From contig JASJCI010000040.1 of the NCBI GenBank assembly GCA_030066085.1, positions 1 through 64,000 of the forward strand: 64,000 nucleotides of DNA, read 5' to 3'. Made by a program: the position numbers and the translations under genes. Of the stretch, positions 1,511 through 54,445 are shown one piece after another (within the stretch, counting starts at the first letter, position 1; every line of letters begins with the position of its first letter). Origin of the DNA: Gammaproteobacteria bacterium (lineage in GTDB: Bacteria > Pseudomonadota > Gammaproteobacteria > GCA-001735895). The notes below the pieces were generated by a model. It was not told the DNA's origin, made no database searches, and saw only the letters and a list, made by a program, of their open reading frames with translations.

Positions 1511-3595
1511 ATGGAGCAAGAAGAAAAACTGATCCGCCTGTTGATCGTCGACGAGGGATATCACAAGGCCGAAAAAATCACCAGTTCGCTACGCGCGACC
1601 GGTATGCACGTGCGCGCCGAATTCGCCGAGGACAGCGAGGACATGTGCGATATCCTCGAGAACAAGACGATCGACCTGGTGCTGTTTTCGCTGGACCTGC
1701 CCGACTTTGCCCTGTCGCAGGCACAACACCTCATCCGCGAGTGCGGCCGGCACGTCGCGCTGATCGCGATGGCGAAAAAGGTCGACACCGAGGTACTGAT
1801 AGCCGCGATCGACGACGGCGCCCAGGACGTGGTCGAGGCCGACAGCCTCGAGCACCTGATCCAGGTAATCCGTCGCGAGTCTTACAACATCAACATCTGG
1901 CGCCGCGCGATGCGCCTGGAAATGGATTTCCAGGAGAGCGAAAAACGTTGCCAGCACCTGCTGACCAATTCCAAGGACGCGGTCGCCTACGTGCACGAGG
2001 GTATGCACATCTTCGCCAACGAAGTGTACATGGACATGTTCGGTTGCGCCGACTTCGACGAGCTCGAGGGCACGCCGATCATCGACATGGTCGACGCCTC
2101 GCAGCAGGCCCACCTGAAAACATTTCTGCGCGAACTCAGCAAAAACGAAAACGCAACCAACGAACTCGACCTCGACCTGATTCACAGCAGCGGCGAAAAC
2201 ATATCCGCCACGCTCGAGTTTTCGCGCGCCAGTTATGATGGCGAACCCTGCACCCAGATCCTGATCCGCTCCAGCGCCGACACCTCCGAGCTGGAGGAGC
2301 AGATCAACTACCTGCACCAGCACGATATCGTCACCGGCCTGTACAATCGCCAGTACTTCATGGAAGAACTGAAGACGTCGATTACGCAGGCAGTCAACGG
2401 CATGCACCAGTCGGCCATCGTTTACGTCGCGATTGATAACTTCCAGTCGATTCGGGACATGGTAGGTATCTCGGGCTGCGATACGCTGGTAGCCGACATC
2501 GGCAAGATCCTGACCGATGCCGCCGGCGAAGATTTCCTGGTCGCGCGCTTCGGCGCCTATTCCTATACCTGCATCGGCAAGGTTGCGGAAAAACAGGAAG
2601 CCGAAACCTTCGCGACCAGTCTGCCGACCCGGGTCGAACAGCACATCGCCGAGATCGGCGACCAGTCGATCAGCTGTACCTGCAGCGCATCGGTGGTGTT
2701 CATCGACGAAAACACGCCCGATAATTCCAACGAACTGATTTCGCGCGCGGAAAAAACCTGCGAAGAAATCCAGCGCGACGGCGGCGGCAAGACGAAGACC
2801 TACATCCCCAAGGCCGGCGAGATGACCCAGACCGAGGAAGACGGCATCACGGCGGACCTGATCAAGGATGCGCTGAACCACAATCGCATCAGGGGCCTGT
2901 ATCAGCCGATCGTCGGGGTCAAGGCACAGGGCGGCGAGCGCTATGTGTCCAGCCTCCAGATCACGTCCGAGGATGGCAAGCTGGCCGGCGAAGCGGACTA
3001 CCGGGATGCCGCCGAACGCACCGGCGTAGCCAAGATGCTCGATCGCTGGAAGATCCTGCACGCGATCAAGAAAATTTCGGAAACGCGCAAGCAAGGGCGC
3101 AAGATCGAGTTTTTCGTGCCGCTGTCGGGCGACTCGGTCAAGGATCCGGCGCTGGCGATGTGGGTTTCGGAAAACCTCGGCAAGGCGCGCGTCGACGGCG
3201 CGCAGCTCGTATTCCTGGTCGACGAGGCACACACCGTCAACCACCTGAAGGCCGCCAAGACGCTGGCGAAAGCCCTGCAACAGCTGCATTGCAAGTTCGC
3301 GATCGACGAATTCGGCACCGGCATCAACCCTTTCCAGCTGGTCAAGCTGCTGAACGCGCAGTACGTGCGCATCAACCACGTCTACATGGATGGCCTGGTA
3401 CAAAACAACGAGAACCAGGACAGCATCCGTGAACTGGCATACGCCGCGTCCGATTCCCAGGTCGAGACCATTACCCCCGGCGTTACCGATGCCGCGGTGC
3501 TGAGCGTGTTATGGACACTGAATGTCGACTTCGTGCAGGGCGATTTCCTGCAGGCCGCGCAAAAAGAGCTGAATTACGACTTCAGCTCGATGTAG
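1511..3595 (+). CDS. FimX-like REC-PAS-GGDEF-EAL protein with degenerate catalytic motifs
   Basis: About 694 aa in four modules: a receiver-like domain (about residues 8-125), PAS (about 140-255), GGDEF (about 285-430) and EAL (about 450-690). The diguanylate cyclase signature is degenerate: RFGAYSY where RFGGDEF is expected. The EAL signature is also lost (VSSLQIT after YQPIVGVK), while IDEFGTG and VQGDFLQ remain recognisable. This matches FimX-type proteins, which bind c-di-GMP through an inactive EAL domain and control type IV pilus assembly and twitching. The ATG at 1511 is preferred over an in-frame TTG at 1478 because the receiver domain begins just after MEQEEKLIRLLIVD. Neither start has a strong ribosome-binding site. 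Divergent from efp. No pilus genes are nearby, so the pilus role is inferred from family resemblance. Confidence 0.85.
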   Translation: MEQEEKLIRLLIVDEGYHKAEKITSSLRATGMHVRAEFAEDSEDMCDILENKTIDLVLFSLDLPDFALSQAQHLIRECGRHVALIAMAKKVDTEVLIAAIDDGAQDVVEADSLEHLIQVIRRESYNINIWRRAMRLEMDFQESEKRCQHLLTNSKDAVAYVHEGMHIFANEVYMDMFGCADFDELEGTPIIDMVDASQQAHLKTFLRELSKNENATNELDLDLIHSSGENISATLEFSRASYDGEPCTQILIRSSADTSELEEQINYLHQHDIVTGLYNRQYFMEELKTSITQAVNGMHQSAIVYVAIDNFQSIRDMVGISGCDTLVADIGKILTDAAGEDFLVARFGAYSYTCIGKVAEKQEAETFATSLPTRVEQHIAEIGDQSISCTCSASVVFIDENTPDNSNELISRAEKTCEEIQRDGGGKTKTYIPKAGEMTQTEEDGITADLIKDALNHNRIRGLYQPIVGVKAQGGERYVSSLQITSEDGKLAGEADYRDAAERTGVAKMLDRWKILHAIKKISETRKQGRKIEFFVPLSGDSVKDPALAMWVSENLGKARVDGAQLVFLVDEAHTVNHLKAAKTLAKALQQLHCKFAIDEFGTGINPFQLVKLLNAQYVRINHVYMDGLVQNNENQDSIRELAYAASDSQVETITPGVTDAAVLSVLWTLNVDFVQGDFLQAAQKELNYDFSSM

Positions 3596-3616
3596 GCAGC
3601 GGCGCCCCGGCTCGCG

Positions 3617-5122
3617 ATGATTCGCTTTCCCTTGCCTCACCTGCTGCTACTGTTATGCCTGCTGGCAACGGTCGTATCCGGCCCGCTGGCTGACAGCCCG
3701 ACCGGCGAACCGCGCCTGGCAACGGTCGATTGCTGGTTCGACATCTCCCCTGACTGGCCCCGTACCCAGTGCTTTCGCCTGTACCTGCCGGAGGATCACG
3801 CCAATCCCGGCGGACAGACGATATCGATTCCCGTGGTGCGTTTCCACGCCGGCTTCAGCCTGTGGCCCGAACGCGCGCCGGTGTTGCACCTGGGCGGCGG
3901 CGGTCCCGGCGGACCGATGTATCTCGATTCAACCGCAGCGGTGCGCACCATCTGGGAGTATCACGATGAAATCTCGCTCGAGCAAAGACGCGACCTGATC
4001 GTAATCGATCCGCGCGGCACCGGGCTCGCCGAGCCGGCACTGGTCTGCTGGACTTTCCTGCAAAACCTGGCCCCGCGTCTCGCGCAAAACCTGCCGATGC
4101 GCGCCGAGTGGCAGGCGATCGACAAGGATTACCAGATCTGTATCGATAACTACCTGCGGGACGGTGTCGATCTGCGCCAGTACAACAGCCGGTCCGTGGC
4201 ACTCGACGTGGAACTGTTGCGCCGCGCGCTCAAAATCGAACGCTGGGTGCTGCTCGGTGTGTCCTACGGCAGTATTTACGCGCAGATGGTGGCGCACGAC
4301 AACCCGGACAGCGTCGAGGCCATGCTGCTGGACAGCGCCACTTTCAGCCACATCGGGGAGACGGAGAGTTTCCTCCGCCGCGCACAGGCGCCGTACCGCG
4401 CGTTGTTCGACTACTGCCGCTACCGCGAGGACTGCCGGGCGCCACTGCCGGATTTCGAAGCGCGCCTGTGGAAGCTGCATCGCGAGCTGAATCGTAACCC
4501 GATCCGCCTGCAGCTCGAACACCCTTACCAGGCGGAACAGATCGACCTGCAGTTGAACGGCGAGCGCTTTTTGTCGGCACTGCTCGAGGGTATTTACGGC
4601 GTCGAGATCTATCGTGACCTGCCGAGCATCATTGTCGAGCTCGAGCAGGGCCAGCACAGGCGCATTCGACCCTACCTCGAAGCGGCCCTGCTATTCATGT
4701 TCGATCCCGCCTACGGCGACGTCAGCATGGAGGCGCATTACTGTTTCGACACGCGTCCCTACACCGATCTGGACGCGATTGCCGAGCAGGTCGAAAGCCT
4801 GCCGCCAGGTTACTTCAAGCGAATCATGCGCCTGTCACTCGAGATGACCGACGAATGTGAACGCATGAATGTCACCGAGGGTTATCCGCCGATGGCAAGT
4901 GCCCGGCAAACCGACGTGCCGACGCTGTTCCTGCACGGCATTTACGACCCCGTGACCCTGCTCGAGGATGTCGTCGCGCAACGGCGATACTTCAGCCATA
5001 GTCGACTCGCGACCTTCGGCTTTTCCCACAGCATCCTGACCAGCGACGAATGTGCCGAGATCGTCGCCGCCCGTTTCCTCGAAGATCACTCGATCGACGG
5101 CGCCGATCTCGCCTGCGAGTAG
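3617..5122 (+). CDS. Secreted alpha/beta-hydrolase, S33/TAP-like peptidase family
   Basis: 501 aa with an N-terminal hydrophobic signal segment (residues 1-22, Leu-rich). The fold resembles proline iminopeptidase / tripeptidyl aminopeptidase (S33) proteins: oxyanion region HLGGGGPGG (about 91-99), the DPRGTG motif (about 131-136), nucleophile elbow GVSYGS with Ser216, an acid in LFLHGIYDPVT, and His in FGFSHSIL near the C-terminus. It probably hydrolyses small peptides or esters in the periplasm or outside the cell; the substrate cannot be told from sequence. Starts 22 bp after the FimX-like gene, possibly co-transcribed. Several Cys residues (DCW, RTQCF, VCW, YCRYREDCR) suggest disulfides, consistent with export. 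Confidence 0.82.
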   Translation: MIRFPLPHLLLLLCLLATVVSGPLADSPTGEPRLATVDCWFDISPDWPRTQCFRLYLPEDHANPGGQTISIPVVRFHAGFSLWPERAPVLHLGGGGPGGPMYLDSTAAVRTIWEYHDEISLEQRRDLIVIDPRGTGLAEPALVCWTFLQNLAPRLAQNLPMRAEWQAIDKDYQICIDNYLRDGVDLRQYNSRSVALDVELLRRALKIERWVLLGVSYGSIYAQMVAHDNPDSVEAMLLDSATFSHIGETESFLRRAQAPYRALFDYCRYREDCRAPLPDFEARLWKLHRELNRNPIRLQLEHPYQAEQIDLQLNGERFLSALLEGIYGVEIYRDLPSIIVELEQGQHRRIRPYLEAALLFMFDPAYGDVSMEAHYCFDTRPYTDLDAIAEQVESLPPGYFKRIMRLSLEMTDECERMNVTEGYPPMASARQTDVPTLFLHGIYDPVTLLEDVVAQRRYFSHSRLATFGFSHSILTSDECAEIVAARFLEDHSIDGADLACE

Positions 5123-25509: not shown

Positions 25510-25986
25510 TCAGGAAATCATCGAGCGCAGCATCCAGGCAGTTTTCTCGTGCACCTGCATGCGCTGCGTCAGCAGGTCGGCGGTGGGCTCGTCACTCGCG
25601 GCATCGACCACCGGGAAAATGCTGCGCGCGGTGCGCACAACGGTTTCCTGGTCTTCGACCAGTTGCGCGATCATGTCCTCCGCGCTGGGTGCTCCACGTT
25701 CCTCGCGGATTTCGGTCAGCTCGGAGAATTGTGCGTAGGAGCCGGGCGCCGGCACGCCGAGGGCGCGAATACGTTCGGCGATTTCGTCGACGGCGGTCGC
25801 AAGTTCGGTGTACTGTTGCTCGAACATCGTGTGCAGGGTGTTGAACATCGGACCCGTGACATTCCAGTGGAAGTTGTGGGTCTTGAGGTAGAGGGTGTAG
25901 GTGTCGGCGAGCAACCGGGACAGGCCGTCGGCGATATTTTCCCGGTCTTCTGCCTTGATTCCAATATTGATTTGTGTTGCGTGCAT
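25510..25986 (-). CDS. dps: Dps family ferritin-like DNA-protection protein
   Basis: 158 aa. Forms a dodecamer that oxidises Fe(II) with H2O2 and stores iron, protecting DNA. The intersubunit ferroxidase ligands are readable: His40 in NFHWNVTGP, His52 and Glu56 in LHTMFEQQY, Asp67 and Glu71 in AVDEIAERI. The N-terminus (MHATQINIG) is short and not Lys-rich, so direct DNA binding like that of E. coli Dps is doubtful. Good GAGGAG ribosome-binding site. Divergent from oxyR. Confidence 0.96.
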
Positions 25987-26119: not shown

Positions 26120-27022
26120 GTGCAGCTATTGCCGACCCTGAAACAGCTCGAATACCTGATCGCGCTCGATGATACGCGCCACTTCGGCAGGGCCGCGGCG
26201 CGCTGCTACATCACCCCGTCCACGCTGAGTGCAGGCATCCAGGATCTCGAGCGCACCCTCGGAGTCGCCGTCGCCGAGCGCACCAAGCGCCGGGTCATCA
26301 TGACGCCGATCGGGCAGGAGATAGCCACCCGGGGCCGGGCCCTGTTGCGCGATGCGCGCGACATCATGGATCTCGCGTCGACCCGGCGCCATCCGCTCGG
26401 TGGCGACCTGCGCCTCGGCGCCATACCGACTATCAGTCCCTTCCTGTTACCCGGCGTGCTTCCCGGGCTGCGCCAGCGGTACCCCGAGCTGCGCCTGTTC
26501 CTGGCGGAGGACAAAACCGATGCCCTGCTGGGTCAACTGCGCGAAGGCAGGATCGACCTGGCGTTGATTGCGCTGCCCTACGACATCGGCGACCTCGAAC
26601 AGCGAACCCTGTTCGCGGATCCGTTTCACTTTGCCTGCAGCATTCATCATCCGCTGGCTTCCCGATCGACGGTGGACCCGAAGACCCTGACAGAACAACC
26701 CCTGCTGCTGCTGGGCGAAGGACATTGCCTGCGCGGCCACGCGCTCGACGCCTGCCAGCTCGGCAGCCGCCGGGTGCGCGAACAGTACGAGGCCAGCAGC
26801 CTGCACACGCTGGTGCAAATGGCCGCGACGGGTATCGGGGTAACCCTGCTGCCGCGGCTTGCGATCGAGGCCGGCATCACCAGCGGTACCGACCTGGCCA
26901 TAGTGCCACTGAAACAGGCGGTGCAACGCCAGATCGTGCTGGTCTGGCGCCCTACCTCGCTGCGCAAGCCCGACTTTGTGGAGTTCGGTGACGCACTGCA
27001 AGAACTCTCGATGCAAGGGTAA
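26120..27022 (+). CDS. oxyR: Hydrogen-peroxide sensor OxyR (LysR family)
   Basis: 300 aa, GTG start. N-terminal winged helix-turn-helix (LKQLEYLIALDDTRHFGRAA, CYITPSTLSAGI), then the LysR regulatory domain. The redox-active pair is present: Cys203 in LLGEGHCLRGH and Cys212 in ALDAC, spaced nine residues apart like C199/C208 of E. coli OxyR. Divergent from dps, a classic OxyR target, over a 133-bp intergenic region. Likely controls dps and itself. Confidence 0.96.
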   Translation: MQLLPTLKQLEYLIALDDTRHFGRAAARCYITPSTLSAGIQDLERTLGVAVAERTKRRVIMTPIGQEIATRGRALLRDARDIMDLASTRRHPLGGDLRLGAIPTISPFLLPGVLPGLRQRYPELRLFLAEDKTDALLGQLREGRIDLALIALPYDIGDLEQRTLFADPFHFACSIHHPLASRSTVDPKTLTEQPLLLLGEGHCLRGHALDACQLGSRRVREQYEASSLHTLVQMAATGIGVTLLPRLAIEAGITSGTDLAIVPLKQAVQRQIVLVWRPTSLRKPDFVEFGDALQELSMQG

Positions 27023-28131: not shown

Positions 28132-28779
28132 ATGTCTGGTAAAACACCACGAGCCAGGGTCAACGCGGAAGCGGTTTACGGCGCACGCTCGCGCGACGAA
28201 CTCGAAGCCATCTACGACAGATGGGCCGGTGAATACGACGAGGATGCAACCGGGTACTTCGGTTATCTCGGGCCTGAACTTGCCCTCGAGAGATTCGAGC
28301 GCCTGGTGCCGAAAGATGCCCGCATCCTCGACGCCGGCGCTGGTACCGGGCGCCTGGGTAAGCTGCTGTTCGATGCCGGATACCGTGACCTGACGGGATT
28401 CGATCTGTCACGGGGCATGCTGGCGCAGGCGGAAAGTCTCGGCGTTTACCGGGCGCTGCACCACATGGCGCTCGGCGAAACCCTGGGCTATGCCGATGAC
28501 GCTTTCGATGCCACCGCCTGTATCGGTACGCTCACTACCGGCCACGCGCCGGCGGAGGGTATCGACGAACTGCTCCGGGTAACGCGCGGCGGTGGCCTGA
28601 TCGTGCTATCACTGAATCTCGATACCTATACGGCGGATGGCATCAAGGACCGCATCGATCGACTGCTCGCCGATCGGCAGTGGGTACTCGTCGAAGCCAG
28701 CGGATCGCTGCGGATAATGCCCCGGGGCGCACCCGACATGAATCACGAAATTCGCGTCTTCCGCGTGGGCGCCGAATAA
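28132..28779 (+). CDS. Class I SAM-dependent methyltransferase (METTL27-like)
   Basis: 215 aa. SAM-binding motif I is RILDAGAGTGRLGKLL (about residues 64-79), followed by the acidic motif II in LTGFDLSRGMLAQA and motif IV at FDATACIGTLTTGHAP. LEAIYDRWAGEYDEDAT near the N-terminus is typical of the Williams-Beuren-region / methyltransferase-like 27 group. Substrate unknown; small molecule or protein are both possible. ATG start with an AGGA ribosome-binding site. Confidence 0.82.
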   Translation: MSGKTPRARVNAEAVYGARSRDELEAIYDRWAGEYDEDATGYFGYLGPELALERFERLVPKDARILDAGAGTGRLGKLLFDAGYRDLTGFDLSRGMLAQAESLGVYRALHHMALGETLGYADDAFDATACIGTLTTGHAPAEGIDELLRVTRGGGLIVLSLNLDTYTADGIKDRIDRLLADRQWVLVEASGSLRIMPRGAPDMNHEIRVFRVGAE

Positions 28780-28867
28780 TGACGCCAACGACCGGTTTTC
28801 CTTCCCTCGCGCCTGCCGCTGCGAAGGCCTGAGCCCGCTCCCGGCGGCAAACAAAGAGACCCGCAGA

Positions 28868-29875
28868 ATGGAGTTCGTGCTAGATTTCCTCTCGCGCCTG
28901 ATCACGCAGTTCCAGTCCCCCACGCTGGGTTTCCTGATCGGCGGCATGCTGGTCGCGGCACTTGGCAGCAATCTCAAGATACCCAATGCGATCTACCAGT
29001 TCATCGTGTTCATGCTGTTGATGAAAATCGGGATCAGTGGCGGGATCGAAATCCGCCAGGCAGATCTGAGCGCCATGTTGTTGCCGGCCCTGTCCTCGAT
29101 CGTCATTGGCATCGCGATCGTTTTGCTCGGTAGTTTCGTCTTCTCGCTGATACCCAGCGTCAAGCGGGAAGACGGGATAGCTACCGCCGGGCTATTCGGC
29201 GCGGTAAGCGCGTCGACGCTCGCCGCGGCAATCGTCCTGCTCGAGGAAGAATCGATCCTGTTCGAGGCCTGGGTACCCGCGCTCTACCCTTTCATGGACA
29301 TTCCCGCGCTGATCCTGGCCATAGTACTGGCGAATATCCACCTCAGGAAAACCAGCGCGGGCAAGGAAAGCAAGGTCGATGTCGCGGGTATCGTCAAGGA
29401 AAGCCTGCGCAGTTCCGCCCTGTCCGCACTGATCCTGGGCCTGGCGCTTGGCCTGTTCACCCGGCCGGACCGGGTGCTCGAAACGTTTTACGAGCCGCTG
29501 TTCCGCGGCTTTCTGTCGATACTGCTGCTGGTCATGGGGATGGAAGCCTATGCGAGGCTCAACGAGCTGCGCCGGGTCGCGCACTGGTACGCGGTTTACG
29601 CCTTTTTTGCGCCGATCATGCACGGCCTGATGGCCTTCGGCCTGGGTTACATCGCTCACCTGGCGACGGGATTCAGTCCGGGCGGCGTCATCCTGCTGGC
29701 CGTGATCGCTGCCTCGAACTCCGACATTTCCGGGCCACCGACGCTCAGGGCCGCGATTCCTTCCGCCAATCCGTCGGCCTATATCGGCGCCTCGACCAGT
29801 GTCGGCACACCGGTGTCGATTGCCGTCTGTATCCCGTTGTTCATCGCGCTGGCGCAGGTAGTCTTCGAGCTATAG
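28868..29875 (+). CDS. sbtA: SbtA-family sodium-dependent bicarbonate transporter
   Basis: 335 aa, about ten hydrophobic segments in two inverted halves. Family signatures: GFLIGGMLVAALGSNLKIP, FMLLMKIGISGGIEI, GLFGAVSASTLAAAIVLLEEE (read in parts), PALYPFMDIPALI, and AASNSDISGPPTLRAAIPSA in the second half. SbtA imports bicarbonate with Na+ in cyanobacteria, and related proteins occur in many proteobacteria. Cyanobacterial SbtA is about 370 aa, so the cytoplasmic loop here is shorter. The sbtB-like PII gene follows after 16 bp, which strongly supports the assignment. Confidence 0.9.
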   Translation: MEFVLDFLSRLITQFQSPTLGFLIGGMLVAALGSNLKIPNAIYQFIVFMLLMKIGISGGIEIRQADLSAMLLPALSSIVIGIAIVLLGSFVFSLIPSVKREDGIATAGLFGAVSASTLAAAIVLLEEESILFEAWVPALYPFMDIPALILAIVLANIHLRKTSAGKESKVDVAGIVKESLRSSALSALILGLALGLFTRPDRVLETFYEPLFRGFLSILLLVMGMEAYARLNELRRVAHWYAVYAFFAPIMHGLMAFGLGYIAHLATGFSPGGVILLAVIAASNSDISGPPTLRAAIPSANPSAYIGASTSVGTPVSIAVCIPLFIALAQVVFEL

Positions 29876-29891
29876 GACAAGGAGAGAAATC

Positions 29892-30221
29892 ATGACGCTG
29901 CATCGCGCAGAAAAAGTAGTCATCATCACCGAGAAAATGATCTCCAGGGGCGTGTGCGAAATCCTGGAGGCTTGTGGCGCAACCGGCTACACCATTGTTG
30001 CCGCCGGCGGCAAGGGTAGCCGTAACATACGCATGACCTCGGAGCGGGCCTCGGTGATCGACGAGTTCGCCAATGTCAAAATCGAGGTTATCGTCAACGA
30101 CAAGGCCATGGGCGAAGCCATCATGGACCAGGTCGCGGAGAAGTATTTCGCGGACTATCCCGGGATTACCTACATCGAGGATGTCCAGATCCTGCGACCC
30201 GCCAAGTTCGAACACGACTGA
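29892..30221 (+). CDS. sbtB: SbtB-like PII-family regulator of SbtA
   Basis: 109 aa with the PII ferredoxin-like fold. EKVVIITEKMISRGVCEILE, then GATGYTIVAAGGKGSRNIR (the SbtB T-loop segment), then NVKIEVIVNDKAMGEAIMDQ (two parts) and YPGITYIEDVQIL. SbtB proteins bind adenine nucleotides (cAMP, AMP, ADP, ATP) and gate SbtA. The C-terminal redox-sensitive tail of cyanobacterial SbtB (GPEGC) is absent; the protein ends RPAKFEHD. Strong AAGGAG ribosome-binding site. Co-transcribed with sbtA. Confidence 0.9.
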   Translation: MTLHRAEKVVIITEKMISRGVCEILEACGATGYTIVAAGGKGSRNIRMTSERASVIDEFANVKIEVIVNDKAMGEAIMDQVAEKYFADYPGITYIEDVQILRPAKFEHD

Positions 30222-30274
30222 TCCAGCACGGCCGGGGCGAATTCAGGTTCCTGCCTTGCTGGTGGCTCCGGCCG

Positions 30275-31975
30275 CTAGTCGGTTTTCTCCAGCGTCCACA
30301 AACCCCTGATGACGCCTTTCGCCGGATCGCGAATCCAGAAGTCACCGCTCAGGTTGCCATCGTCATCGACGGTCAGGGTAGCGGCGCCGTCCTTGAGTTC
30401 CCCGCCCCTGGCCTCGAGGGTGAACTCGATCTCGACGACGTTACCGTCGATCTTGCCGGCGAAAATCTCGCCTTCCCGGTCACCGTCGAACTCGCCGCGG
30501 ATATTGTCGGCCTGCTGGGTCAGGATGAATTCGATATCGGGACTGGAGCCGAAAAACAGCCGCCGGTCCGCGATGGGCAGGGTCGAGGAATAGTCGATAT
30601 CGTCGATCTCGTAGGTACCGGCAATATCGCGTATCGCAGCTGCTGCCTCGCTGGTCGCCGCAACCGCGGCGGCTTCCACGCCGGCTTTCTCCAGCGTCCA
30701 CATGCCCCTGACGATGCCTCTTGCCCGGTCGCGAATCCTGAATTCACCGCTCAGGTTGCCATCGTCATCGACGGTCAGGGTAGCGGTGCCGTCCTTGAGC
30801 TCGCCACCCCTGGCCTCTAGGGTGAACTCGATCTCGATGACGTTACCGTCGATCTTGCCGGCAAAAATCTCGCCTTCCCGGTCACCGTCGAAATCGCCGC
30901 GGATTTCGTTACCATCCTGCCTCAGGGCGAATTCGATATCGGGACTGGAGCCGAAAAACAGCCGCCGGTCCGCGATGGGCAGGGTCGAGGAATAGTCGAT
31001 GTCATCGATCTCGTAGGTACCGGTAACGTCGAGTACCGCGGCTTCCTCTGCGCCGGCCGGGATAACGGCGGCTTCCTCCTCGCTGGCCGGGATAACGGCG
31101 GCTTCCTCTTCGCTGGCCGGGATAACGGCGGCAGCCGCTGCGGCGGCGGCGGTGACCGCACCGGCCGCCGCGGCGGCGGCATCGCCTGCGCCGACCTCGA
31201 GGTCGATATCCGGTATCTCGATGTCGTCGAAATCGAGCGCACCGGGCGACGGAATGCGATCCAGCGCGAGGAACGCGGGCACCGCATCGAGCGTTACCGG
31301 TGCCGTATTCAGATCGGCAACATAGCCCGACTCTCCCACGGACAGGTCCAGCGGCTCGACGACGCCGAAGTTCAGCAGGAAGACTTCACCGTCATCGACG
31401 TTGACGTACAACCCCTGTTCGATTGCCCCGGCGGCATCGTCACCACGGAGTTCGCTCTCCTCGGCCGCACAATCGGCGTCACAGAGCCGCGTGTTGAATT
31501 CGGTGCCACGAATGCCGATGGTGGCGACCGGGGTATTCAGCCGGTAACCGGCGGGATTGAGCCTGGCGATCAGCCCGGTAACCAGCCTTACACCGCCGCG
31601 CAGCAGGTTCAGTACCGCGCTCTGGTTGCTGCTGTCACCCTCGTCATCGTCGCTGGTAACCAGGCGGCTGACGCGAAACTCGGAATCGGGCCTGATCACC
31701 AGCCGGCTTTCGTCGTTCAACAGGATCACGGCCAGGCTGTCGACGCCGGTTACGACCAGTTCGCCCTGCATCAGTTCGCCATCTTTTTCCGCTTCCCTGG
31801 AATCGCCCGTGCCGGTCTCGATGGTCACATCACCGCGGGCGAACTTGACGACCCCGGCCGGATTCTCGGCCAGCCCGGCCGTCGAAAACACGAGGCCGGC
31901 AAACAGCAGCAGCAGCGCGGGCAGCTTGGTGGCGTATTTCGTATTGCGGCAAGGGGCTGAATCAGCTTGGTGCAT
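30275..31975 (-). CDS. Exported FecR-domain protein with a duplicated C-terminal module
   Basis: 566 aa. Signal peptide ending STAGLA, then a FecR-type domain (about residues 38-215: VVKFARGDVTIETG, LVIRPDSEFRVSRL, ATIGIRGTEFNTRLCD). Then an Ala-rich low-complexity linker with three AVIPASEEEA-type repeats. Then two near-identical modules of about 112 aa, each starting GTYEIDDIDYSSTLPIADRR and ending WTLEK. The modules look all-beta and contain FDGDREGEIFAGKIDGNV and TLTVDDDGNLSG; I do not recognise the fold. No TonB receptor or ECF sigma factor is adjacent, so this is the free-standing periplasmic FecR type rather than an anti-sigma factor. Convergent with sbtB, 53 bp between stops. Confidence 0.8.
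   Translation of the reverse strand: MHQADSAPCRNTKYATKLPALLLLFAGLVFSTAGLAENPAGVVKFARGDVTIETGTGDSREAEKDGELMQGELVVTGVDSLAVILLNDESRLVIRPDSEFRVSRLVTSDDDEGDSSNQSAVLNLLRGGVRLVTGLIARLNPAGYRLNTPVATIGIRGTEFNTRLCDADCAAEESELRGDDAAGAIEQGLYVNVDDGEVFLLNFGVVEPLDLSVGESGYVADLNTAPVTLDAVPAFLALDRIPSPGALDFDDIEIPDIDLEVGAGDAAAAAAGAVTAAAAAAAAVIPASEEEAAVIPASEEEAAVIPAGAEEAAVLDVTGTYEIDDIDYSSTLPIADRRLFFGSSPDIEFALRQDGNEIRGDFDGDREGEIFAGKIDGNVIEIEFTLEARGGELKDGTATLTVDDDGNLSGEFRIRDRARGIVRGMWTLEKAGVEAAAVAATSEAAAAIRDIAGTYEIDDIDYSSTLPIADRRLFFGSSPDIEFILTQQADNIRGEFDGDREGEIFAGKIDGNVVEIEFTLEARGGELKDGAATLTVDDDGNLSGDFWIRDPAKGVIRGLWTLEKTD
30284..31022. repeat. Two direct copies of a ~337-bp segment inside the FecR-domain gene
   Basis: Segments 30284-30620 and 30686-31022 align at a constant offset of 402 bp (134 codons), starting at the shared CCAGCGTCCACA and ending at TCGTAGGTACCG. 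They differ by scattered substitutions, mostly at third positions. They encode the twin C-terminal modules and would be a substrate for recombination. Confidence 0.85.
31041..31130. repeat. Three tandem 30-bp repeats encoding AVIPASEEEA
   Basis: Consecutive units at 31041-31070, 31071-31100 and 31101-31130, each beginning GCTTCCTC and ending GGCCGGGATAACGGCG, with 1-4 differences. They code for the acidic linker repeats of the FecR-domain protein. Confidence 0.88.
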
Positions 31976-54096: not shown

Positions 54097-54099
54097 CGA

Positions 54100-54439
54100 G
54101 ACGAGTCAGCCTGTAAGCCGGGTTCTGTCGTGGATAATCATTCATCTGGACCGGGAGTCACCTCCCGGCCTCGAGCGACCAACCCGAAAACGGCGCGGGC
54201 CACGCCATGGTTTTCCTATTTGGTCTTGCTCCGGGTGGGGTTTACCCTGCCGCTCCCGTTACCGGTCGCGCGGTGCGCTCTTACCGCACCATTTCACCCT
54301 TACCGACCGAGGCCGGCGGTATACTTTCTGTTGCACTGGCCGTAGGCTCGCGCCCCCCAGACGTTATCTGGCACCCTGCCCTGCGGAGCCCGGACTTTCC
54401 TCCAGTCCCCGCGGGGACCAGCGATTATCCGGCCGACTC
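54100..54439 (-). ncRNA. rnpB: RNase P RNA (class A)
   Basis: About 340 nt on the minus strand. Conserved core elements in order: GGAGGAAAGTCCGGGCTCC, then GCAGGGTGCCAG, AACAGAAAGTATACCGCC, GGTAAGGGTGAAATGGTGCG, GGTAAGAGCGCACCG, CCACCCGGAGCAAGACCAAA, and the 3' CGACAGAACCCGGCTTA. The 5' end GAGTCGGCC pairs with 3' GGCTGACTC to form P1, fixing both ends. The catalytic RNA matures tRNA 5' ends. Position upstream of mraZ is common in gammaproteobacteria. Confidence 0.96.
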
Positions 54440-54445
54440 GGCGCG

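Follow-up and report, generated by a model that had tools for sequence, protein, structure and literature searches.

The sbtA-sbtB locus and its products

Two adjacent genes, sbtA and sbtB, make up the locus analysed here, which lies in a window corresponding to the whole stretch of 64,000 nucleotides under study. The preliminary description had placed a two-gene SbtA-SbtB pair at 28868-30221, and both open reading frames match it exactly, on the same strand and 16 bp apart. The features of the locus, with the evidence used for each, are as follows:

28777..28867, + strand: stretch upstream of sbtA, containing the stop codon that ends the upstream methyltransferase gene (sequence, scan)
28868..29875, + strand: sbtA, predicted Na+-dependent bicarbonate symporter, 335 aa (PF05982, 7cye_A, contact residues)
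29876..29891, + strand: sbtA-sbtB spacer, 16 bp, with an AAGGAG Shine-Dalgarno-like sequence (direct sequence reading)
29892..30221, + strand: sbtB, predicted PII-like regulator, 109 aa (PF00543, 3dfe_A and SbtB chains, alignment of 79 SbtBs)
30258..30282, + strand: stem plus T tract 3' of sbtB, a weak, possibly terminator-like site (consensus scan)

The consensus scan found no sigma-70-like promoter in the stretch upstream of sbtA. Concerning terminator-like stem/T-tract sites, four were found in the region vs. 1.7 expected, and the one downstream of sbtB overlaps the 3' end of a convergent FecR gene. The FecR-domain protein encoded there (30275-31975, reverse strand) carries a C-terminal block of ca. 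110 residues (TYEIDDIDYSSTLPIADRRLFFGSSPDIEF...) in two near-identical copies, as well as a short VIPASEEEAA repeat. Upstream of the region, a Dps/ferritin-like gene (25510-25986, reverse strand) lies head to head with an OxyR-like LysR gene (26120-27022, forward strand), the two forming an apparent oxidative-stress pair. A bacterial RNase P class A RNA was recognized at 54098-54440 of the reverse strand (330.9 bits).

The window SbtA matched PF05982 (Sbt_1) over the complete profile (positions 1-308 of 308; E-value 7.3e-88; 295.3 bits for a curated cut-off of 27), as expected of an SbtA (Na+-dependent bicarbonate symporter, TC 2.A.83). Its sole PDB match was the Synechocystis SbtA (7cye, 422.5 bits), with which it shares 62.1% identity over 330 aligned positions, while an NCBIfam search gave no match for either SbtA or SbtB. 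The nine Na+/HCO3- contact positions of Synechocystis SbtA listed in the accessible part of PMC8352866 are all kept in the window protein (F110, G111, A112, S114, Y140, A320, S322, S324 and S327, Synechocystis numbering). They are also identical in each of the 89 canonical SbtA rows, window included, that remained from 93 after removal of four duplicates and were used for the careful tree and alignment. As for position 323, located between the two binding pockets, it is a Ser in 59 of these 89 rows, as in Synechocystis, and an Asn in the other 30, among which the window SbtA; this Asn could change the substrate preference.

For SbtB, the match to PF00543 (P-II) reached an E-value of 8.7e-16 (58.6 bits). 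The seven best PDB rows were all SbtB chains or 3dfe, the Anabaena orthologue (82.5 to 95.3 bits; 2.3e-26 for 3dfe_A), followed by TTHA0516 at 48 bits and by others at 29.2 bits or less. The GGKGSRN motif corresponds to residues 39-45, within a T-loop reading GGKGSRNIR in which the RxxR motif is kept as R44 and R47 (Met-1 numbering), two positions at which Arg was found in 55 and 60 of the 79 aligned SbtBs, respectively. In the Synechocystis protein, the equivalent R43xxR46 at the T-loop base contacts the ATP phosphates, according to the accessible text of PMC10117731.

The claim that SbtB retains GGKGSRN and lacks the C-terminal redox hairpin was borne out at the sequence level: the window protein ends in ...ILRPAKFEHD, without the CGPxGC R-loop and without any cysteine pair. 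The absence of this tail had been presented as notable, but it turned out to be ordinary, since none of the 79 aligned SbtBs (window and 78 relatives) has the R-loop cysteine pair, most of them ending instead in a short R-P-x-K-F-like tail, and since the R-loop occurs in only about 50% of 460 cyanobacterial SbtBs (PMC10991534, 2024, accessible part). In the same part of that study, the R-loop is treated as optional and as unnecessary for family membership, the Cyanobium SbtB is naturally devoid of it, and SbtBs of this kind are proposed to answer the adenylate charge only. The nucleotide-only control suggested for the window SbtB fits this picture.

The closest well-described counterpart is the slr1512-slr1513 pair of Synechocystis PCC 6803 (PDB 7cye, 7cyf, 7egk, 7egl and 8zor), which shares with the window the gene order, the SbtA identity and contact residues given above, and the GGKGSRN and RxxR motifs of SbtB. 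In contrast, the window SbtA is devoid of the cytosolic loop of its Synechocystis homologue (residues about 165 to 204), the window SbtB has no CGPxGC R-loop and is one residue longer in its T-loop region, the window genome has no carboxysome shell gene, and the window SbtA falls outside the clade of the three cyanobacterial SbtAs analysed. The R-loop-less SbtB7001 (PDB 6mm2 and others) has a tail, ...LRAHKF, resembling the ...LRPAKF of the window protein. It presumably originates from Cyanobium sp. PCC 7001, which, unlike the bacterium studied here, is a cyanobacterium that concentrates CO2 by means of carboxysomes. Both tail types were seen next to cyanobacterial plasmid SbtAs, the SbtB-like neighbour having the tail in Acaryochloris (...CGPDGC) and lacking it in Pseudanabaena. 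By its sequence, the window pair is a genuine relative of the cyanobacterial SbtA/SbtB.

Distribution and relationships of the pair

A total of 431 SbtA stretches were confirmed by tblastn, so that the pair is common outside cyanobacteria and its initial presentation as unusual there was overstated. Eighty loci were taken for study. In 78 of them, sbtB lies at most 1.1 kb from sbtA, on the same strand in 55 cases and on the opposite strand in 23. The two loci without a nearby sbtB are L042 and L071, the contig of the latter ending soon after sbtA.

A tree of 145 rows, obtained by a quick method that gave long-branch warnings and including one characterised SbtA, separated 91 canonical SbtAs (among which those of Synechocystis and of the window) from 54 distant Sbt_1 permeases, on a branch with 100% SH-aLRT support. 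The distant permeases belong to the same Pfam family (PF05982) and display ca. 30% identity; no SbtB was found near them at L002, L003 and L004 in the short stretches examined (about 3.4-3.9 kb). PF05982 covers a wide range of proteins: in a sample of the class, 54 of 369 genomes matched the window SbtA, but with identities of no more than about 27-36% in 52 cases, leaving two genomes with a canonical SbtA, the present one and G103 (67%). Even within the genus, the full-length Sbt_1 proteins of G003, G020 and G030 fell into the distant group, and G004 has only a fragment. Tree and identity thus ruled out that the window SbtA is such a distant paralogue, and the phylogeny places it within the clade holding bicarbonate-transporting SbtA, in agreement with the assignment made at the outset. 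One Phycisphaeraceae metagenome-assembled genome (MAG) carries both types side by side, with a distant Sbt_1 (1542-2609) just upstream of a canonical sbtA (3000-4082; L087:1542-4082).

The 89-row tree, built by a careful method on canonical rows only and including three cyanobacterial SbtAs, joins the window protein to that of a Rickettsiales MAG (support 99/83). This pair lies in a set of 13 rows (99/94) formed with alkaliphilic Bacillota and marine Pseudomonadota, itself nested in a set of 38 rows (100/95) that adds Bacteroidota/Balneolota, Verrucomicrobiota, Spirochaetota and Planctomycetota. The three cyanobacterial SbtAs group with Chromatiaceae in a set of 14 rows (100/99), apart from the window clade. 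The nearest kin of the window SbtA are therefore found in Rickettsiales MAGs and alkaliphilic Bacillota. The corresponding pairs (L014, L015, L016, L018 and L020, L016 being Evansella vedderi and L020 Alkalihalobacillus bogoriensis) show 81-84% identity, the same-strand sbtA-sbtB order and no R-loop. They differ from the window in that they belong to other phyla or orders, and their genomes have no RuBisCO match of at least 400 bits.

Within the family, canonical SbtA was found in this genome only, out of 41. Because its close kin are non-cyanobacterial and its presence in the family is limited to a single genome, the distribution has the pattern of lateral transfer, and we infer that sbtAB was acquired horizontally. 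No compositional sign of transfer was found in sbtA or sbtB, whose GC and GC3 differ little from the values of the neighbouring sequence; the transfer, if real, would therefore not be recent.

Calvin-cycle genes, carbonic anhydrases and genomic neighbours

The window contains neither RuBisCO nor carboxysome genes, as had been remarked, and the supposition that autotrophy might be encoded elsewhere in the genome proved right. Another contig, C49, carries in a row the genes for FBPase, phosphoribulokinase, transketolase and aldolase, followed by cbbL, cbbS and cbbQ, with a divergent CbbR-like LysR regulator. Its cbbL product, the only RuBisCO match in the genome, has 7smk as best PDB match (992.6 bits), and we take such a large subunit to be of form IA, as in the carboxysomal enzyme. 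A 791-aa frame following cbbQ had no Pfam or NCBIfam hit under the thresholds applied, and presumably occupies the place expected for cbbO. Genome-wide, no BMC shell gene (PF00936) was detected, even though the E. coli and Synechococcus controls were positive. As regards a carboxysomal CO2-concentrating mechanism, the genome thus has the form I RuBisCO but not the shell genes. The search proposed for RuBisCO, carboxysome and carbonic anhydrase (CA) genes was consequently positive for the first and negative for the shell; no beta-CA or alpha-CA was found in this genome (completeness 96.6%), a single YrdA-like gamma-class protein, of putative CA activity, being present. In the family, 26 of the 41 genomes have a RuBisCO match, this one and 25 others.

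In the neighbourhoods of sbtA, gene calls were mechanical and some clusters were antisense artefacts; only neighbours checked by Pfam or phmmer were used. Five of the 80 loci, all alphaproteobacterial (L038, L067, L076, L077 and L084), show the arrangement carA - ... - sbtA - sbtB (opposite strand) - ... - carB, spanning for instance L067:5637-15039, L077:320-8590 and L084:1078-10411. A beta-CA gene lies directly upstream of sbtA in L067, L077 and L084, and also in L050, which has no carAB and falls outside the 38-row set. The Pfam check of these carAB and CA neighbours covered L067 and L084, plus carA and the CA of L077. Carbamoyl-phosphate synthase consumes HCO3-, and for this reason the arrangement argues for a biosynthetic supply. 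The five loci belong to the 38-row set, in another branch than the window, and are each other's kin (100/99), so that their carAB linkage may go back to one founding event; it is absent from the window locus itself, and the nearest relatives of the window have no informative neighbour except sbtB.

Besides sbtB, a single kind of gene recurs frequently near sbtA, namely a LysR gene, present in 13 of the 80 loci, in most cases divergent and about 1 kb upstream. In Aliiglaciecola sp. M165, the LysR gene divergent from sbtA (L026:6968-7897, reverse strand) scores 182 bits against the CbbR of the present genome, and RuBisCO was not found in that genome despite this CbbR-like neighbour. No cbb gene (cbbL, cbbS, cbbQ or prk) was seen in the stretches examined around the 80 loci.

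The co-occurrence with RuBisCO was analysed in the genomes of 38 of the 80 loci, picked for longer or named contigs. A match of at least 400 bits was found in none of the 17 other genomes of the window's 38-row clade vs. 6 of the 21 outside it. Weaker PF00016 matches were obtained in the clade for G046 (141 bits), G048 (236 bits) and G052 (84 bits), of which that of G048 could be a true but divergent RuBisCO. A link to RuBisCO as the role of the clade was accordingly left unsupported.

Proposed role and alternative explanations

Taken together, family membership and genomic context lead us to favour, as the probable explanation, a horizontally acquired Na+/HCO3- symporter, SbtA, gated by adenylates through SbtB and mainly supplying carboxylations, with the Calvin cycle as a possible side use. 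Transport (direction and substrate), nucleotide sensing, complex formation and physiological role are here predicted from characterised relatives and from the gene surroundings. SbtA would be a trimeric elevator-type symporter and SbtB its trimeric PII-like partner, sensing the adenylate pool by means of its T-loop and the cleft between its subunits. In the ADP or AMP state, the T-loop would enter the cytosolic cleft of SbtA and plug it, and in the ATP or cAMP state SbtB would release the transporter. Because an SbtB without the R-loop has no thioredoxin/redox layer, the valve would be set by the energy state alone. The pair would have come from a pool common to bacteria of several phyla living in marine and haloalkaline settings. 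It would chiefly serve to provide cytosolic HCO3- for HCO3--dependent carboxylations (those yielding carbamoyl phosphate and those of PEP/pyruvate and acyl-CoA), an aid to the carboxysome-free Calvin cycle being expected only if some cytosolic CA dehydrates HCO3-. As the branch occurs mostly in bacteria without RuBisCO, sbtAB probably serves ordinary biosynthetic reactions that consume bicarbonate, and not a carbon concentrator of the kind known from photosynthesis. Between the two uses envisaged in the preliminary description, anaplerotic carboxylation and autotrophy, the relatives speak more for HCO3--using biosynthesis than for a link to the RuBisCO that this genome does have.

The main rival to this biosynthetic reading is Calvin-cycle supply, in which sbtAB would be the inorganic carbon uptake arm of the bacterium's own carboxysome-free cycle, HCO3- imported by SbtA being converted by a cytosolic CA into CO2, which the form IA RuBisCO would fix when energy is high. 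The C49 operon with its CbbR-like regulator speaks for it, as does the CO2-responsive, 280-fold difference of one of the two sbtA genes in Thiomicrospira pelophila, an autotrophic member of the Pseudomonadota (PMC12628692, accessible part). We nevertheless hold it to be unlikely, given that sbtAB and cbb lie on different contigs, that no BMC shell gene exists in the genome, and that none of the 25 other RuBisCO-bearing genomes of the family has this SbtA. Moreover, without alpha- or beta-CA, HCO3- would reach RuBisCO only via the putative gamma-class enzyme, another CA class or slow uncatalysed dehydration. The same lack of CA could be read differently, with SbtAB replacing the enzyme by importing HCO3- after the loss of beta-CA. 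Beta-CA is present in 29 of the 31 genomes of the genus and absent here, five of the six other tested genomes of the 13-row subclade also lack it, and transporters and CA follow a one-or-the-other pattern in Firmicutes, as reported in the accessible part of PMC10880623. However, one other genome of the genus (G008) has neither beta-CA nor any Sbt_1, the within-genus contrast reaches only p = 0.065, and the genome, 96.6% complete, retains its gamma-class homologue. In the wider set, beta-CA exceeded the cut-off in 20 of the 38 other SbtA genomes and lies next to sbtA in four loci. In a control family of 395 genomes around Alteromonas arenosi, it was missing from 2 of the 8 genomes with canonical SbtA vs. 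32 of the 387 others (Fisher p = 0.145). CA replacement was thus dropped as a general rule; it is a possibility in the window's own subclade, and as an explanation of the present pair we regard it as quite improbable.

It is more improbable still that SbtA moves another small anion, e.g. formate, or works as an exporter. This idea draws on Shewanella SO_3758, in which mutation of the residue equivalent to 323, or over-expression, raises formate tolerance, the authors leaning towards efflux in the accessible text of PMC12093963, and on the Asn found at this position in the window SbtA. Yet the nine Na+/HCO3- contacts are identical in all 89 rows, of which 59 have Ser323, and the neighbours seen in the clade, carbonic anhydrase and carbamoyl-phosphate synthase, make or use HCO3-; SO_3758, an Sbt-like protein, may itself be either a canonical SbtA or a distant Sbt_1. 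An energy-gated HCO3- supply to biosynthesis remains the preferred explanation.

SbtA and SbtB have been studied mainly as parts of the cyanobacterial carbon-concentrating mechanism, also with crops in view. As a broader conjecture, offered tentatively and with more doubt than confidence, the pair may not be primarily such a device. Its mobile R-loop-less branch, which spans Bacillota, Bacteroidota/Balneolota, Verrucomicrobiota, Planctomycetota, Spirochaetota and Pseudomonadota, might be a general energy-gated source of HCO3- for biosynthetic carboxylations in waters of high pH and low CO2, built in places into a carAB locus together with a CA, while cyanobacteria and purple sulfur bacteria would use another branch for carbon fixation. 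Such a branch would show the valve functioning without photosynthesis and would provide SbtA/SbtB pairs controlled by the energy state alone. The biosynthetic role, if true, would also help account for the ability of marine and alkaliphilic heterotrophs to manage when CO2 is scarce. In a partial search of the open-licence literature, neither the carAB linkage nor non-cyanobacterial SbtBs turned up as the subject of a paper. Concerning SbtA, the accessible parts of the sources cite SbtA-like proteins in numerous heterotrophs (PMC10117731), count the family across autotrophs (PMC10880623) and report the permease in some SAR11 genomes, with a mention of anaplerotic enzymes (PMC10030771).
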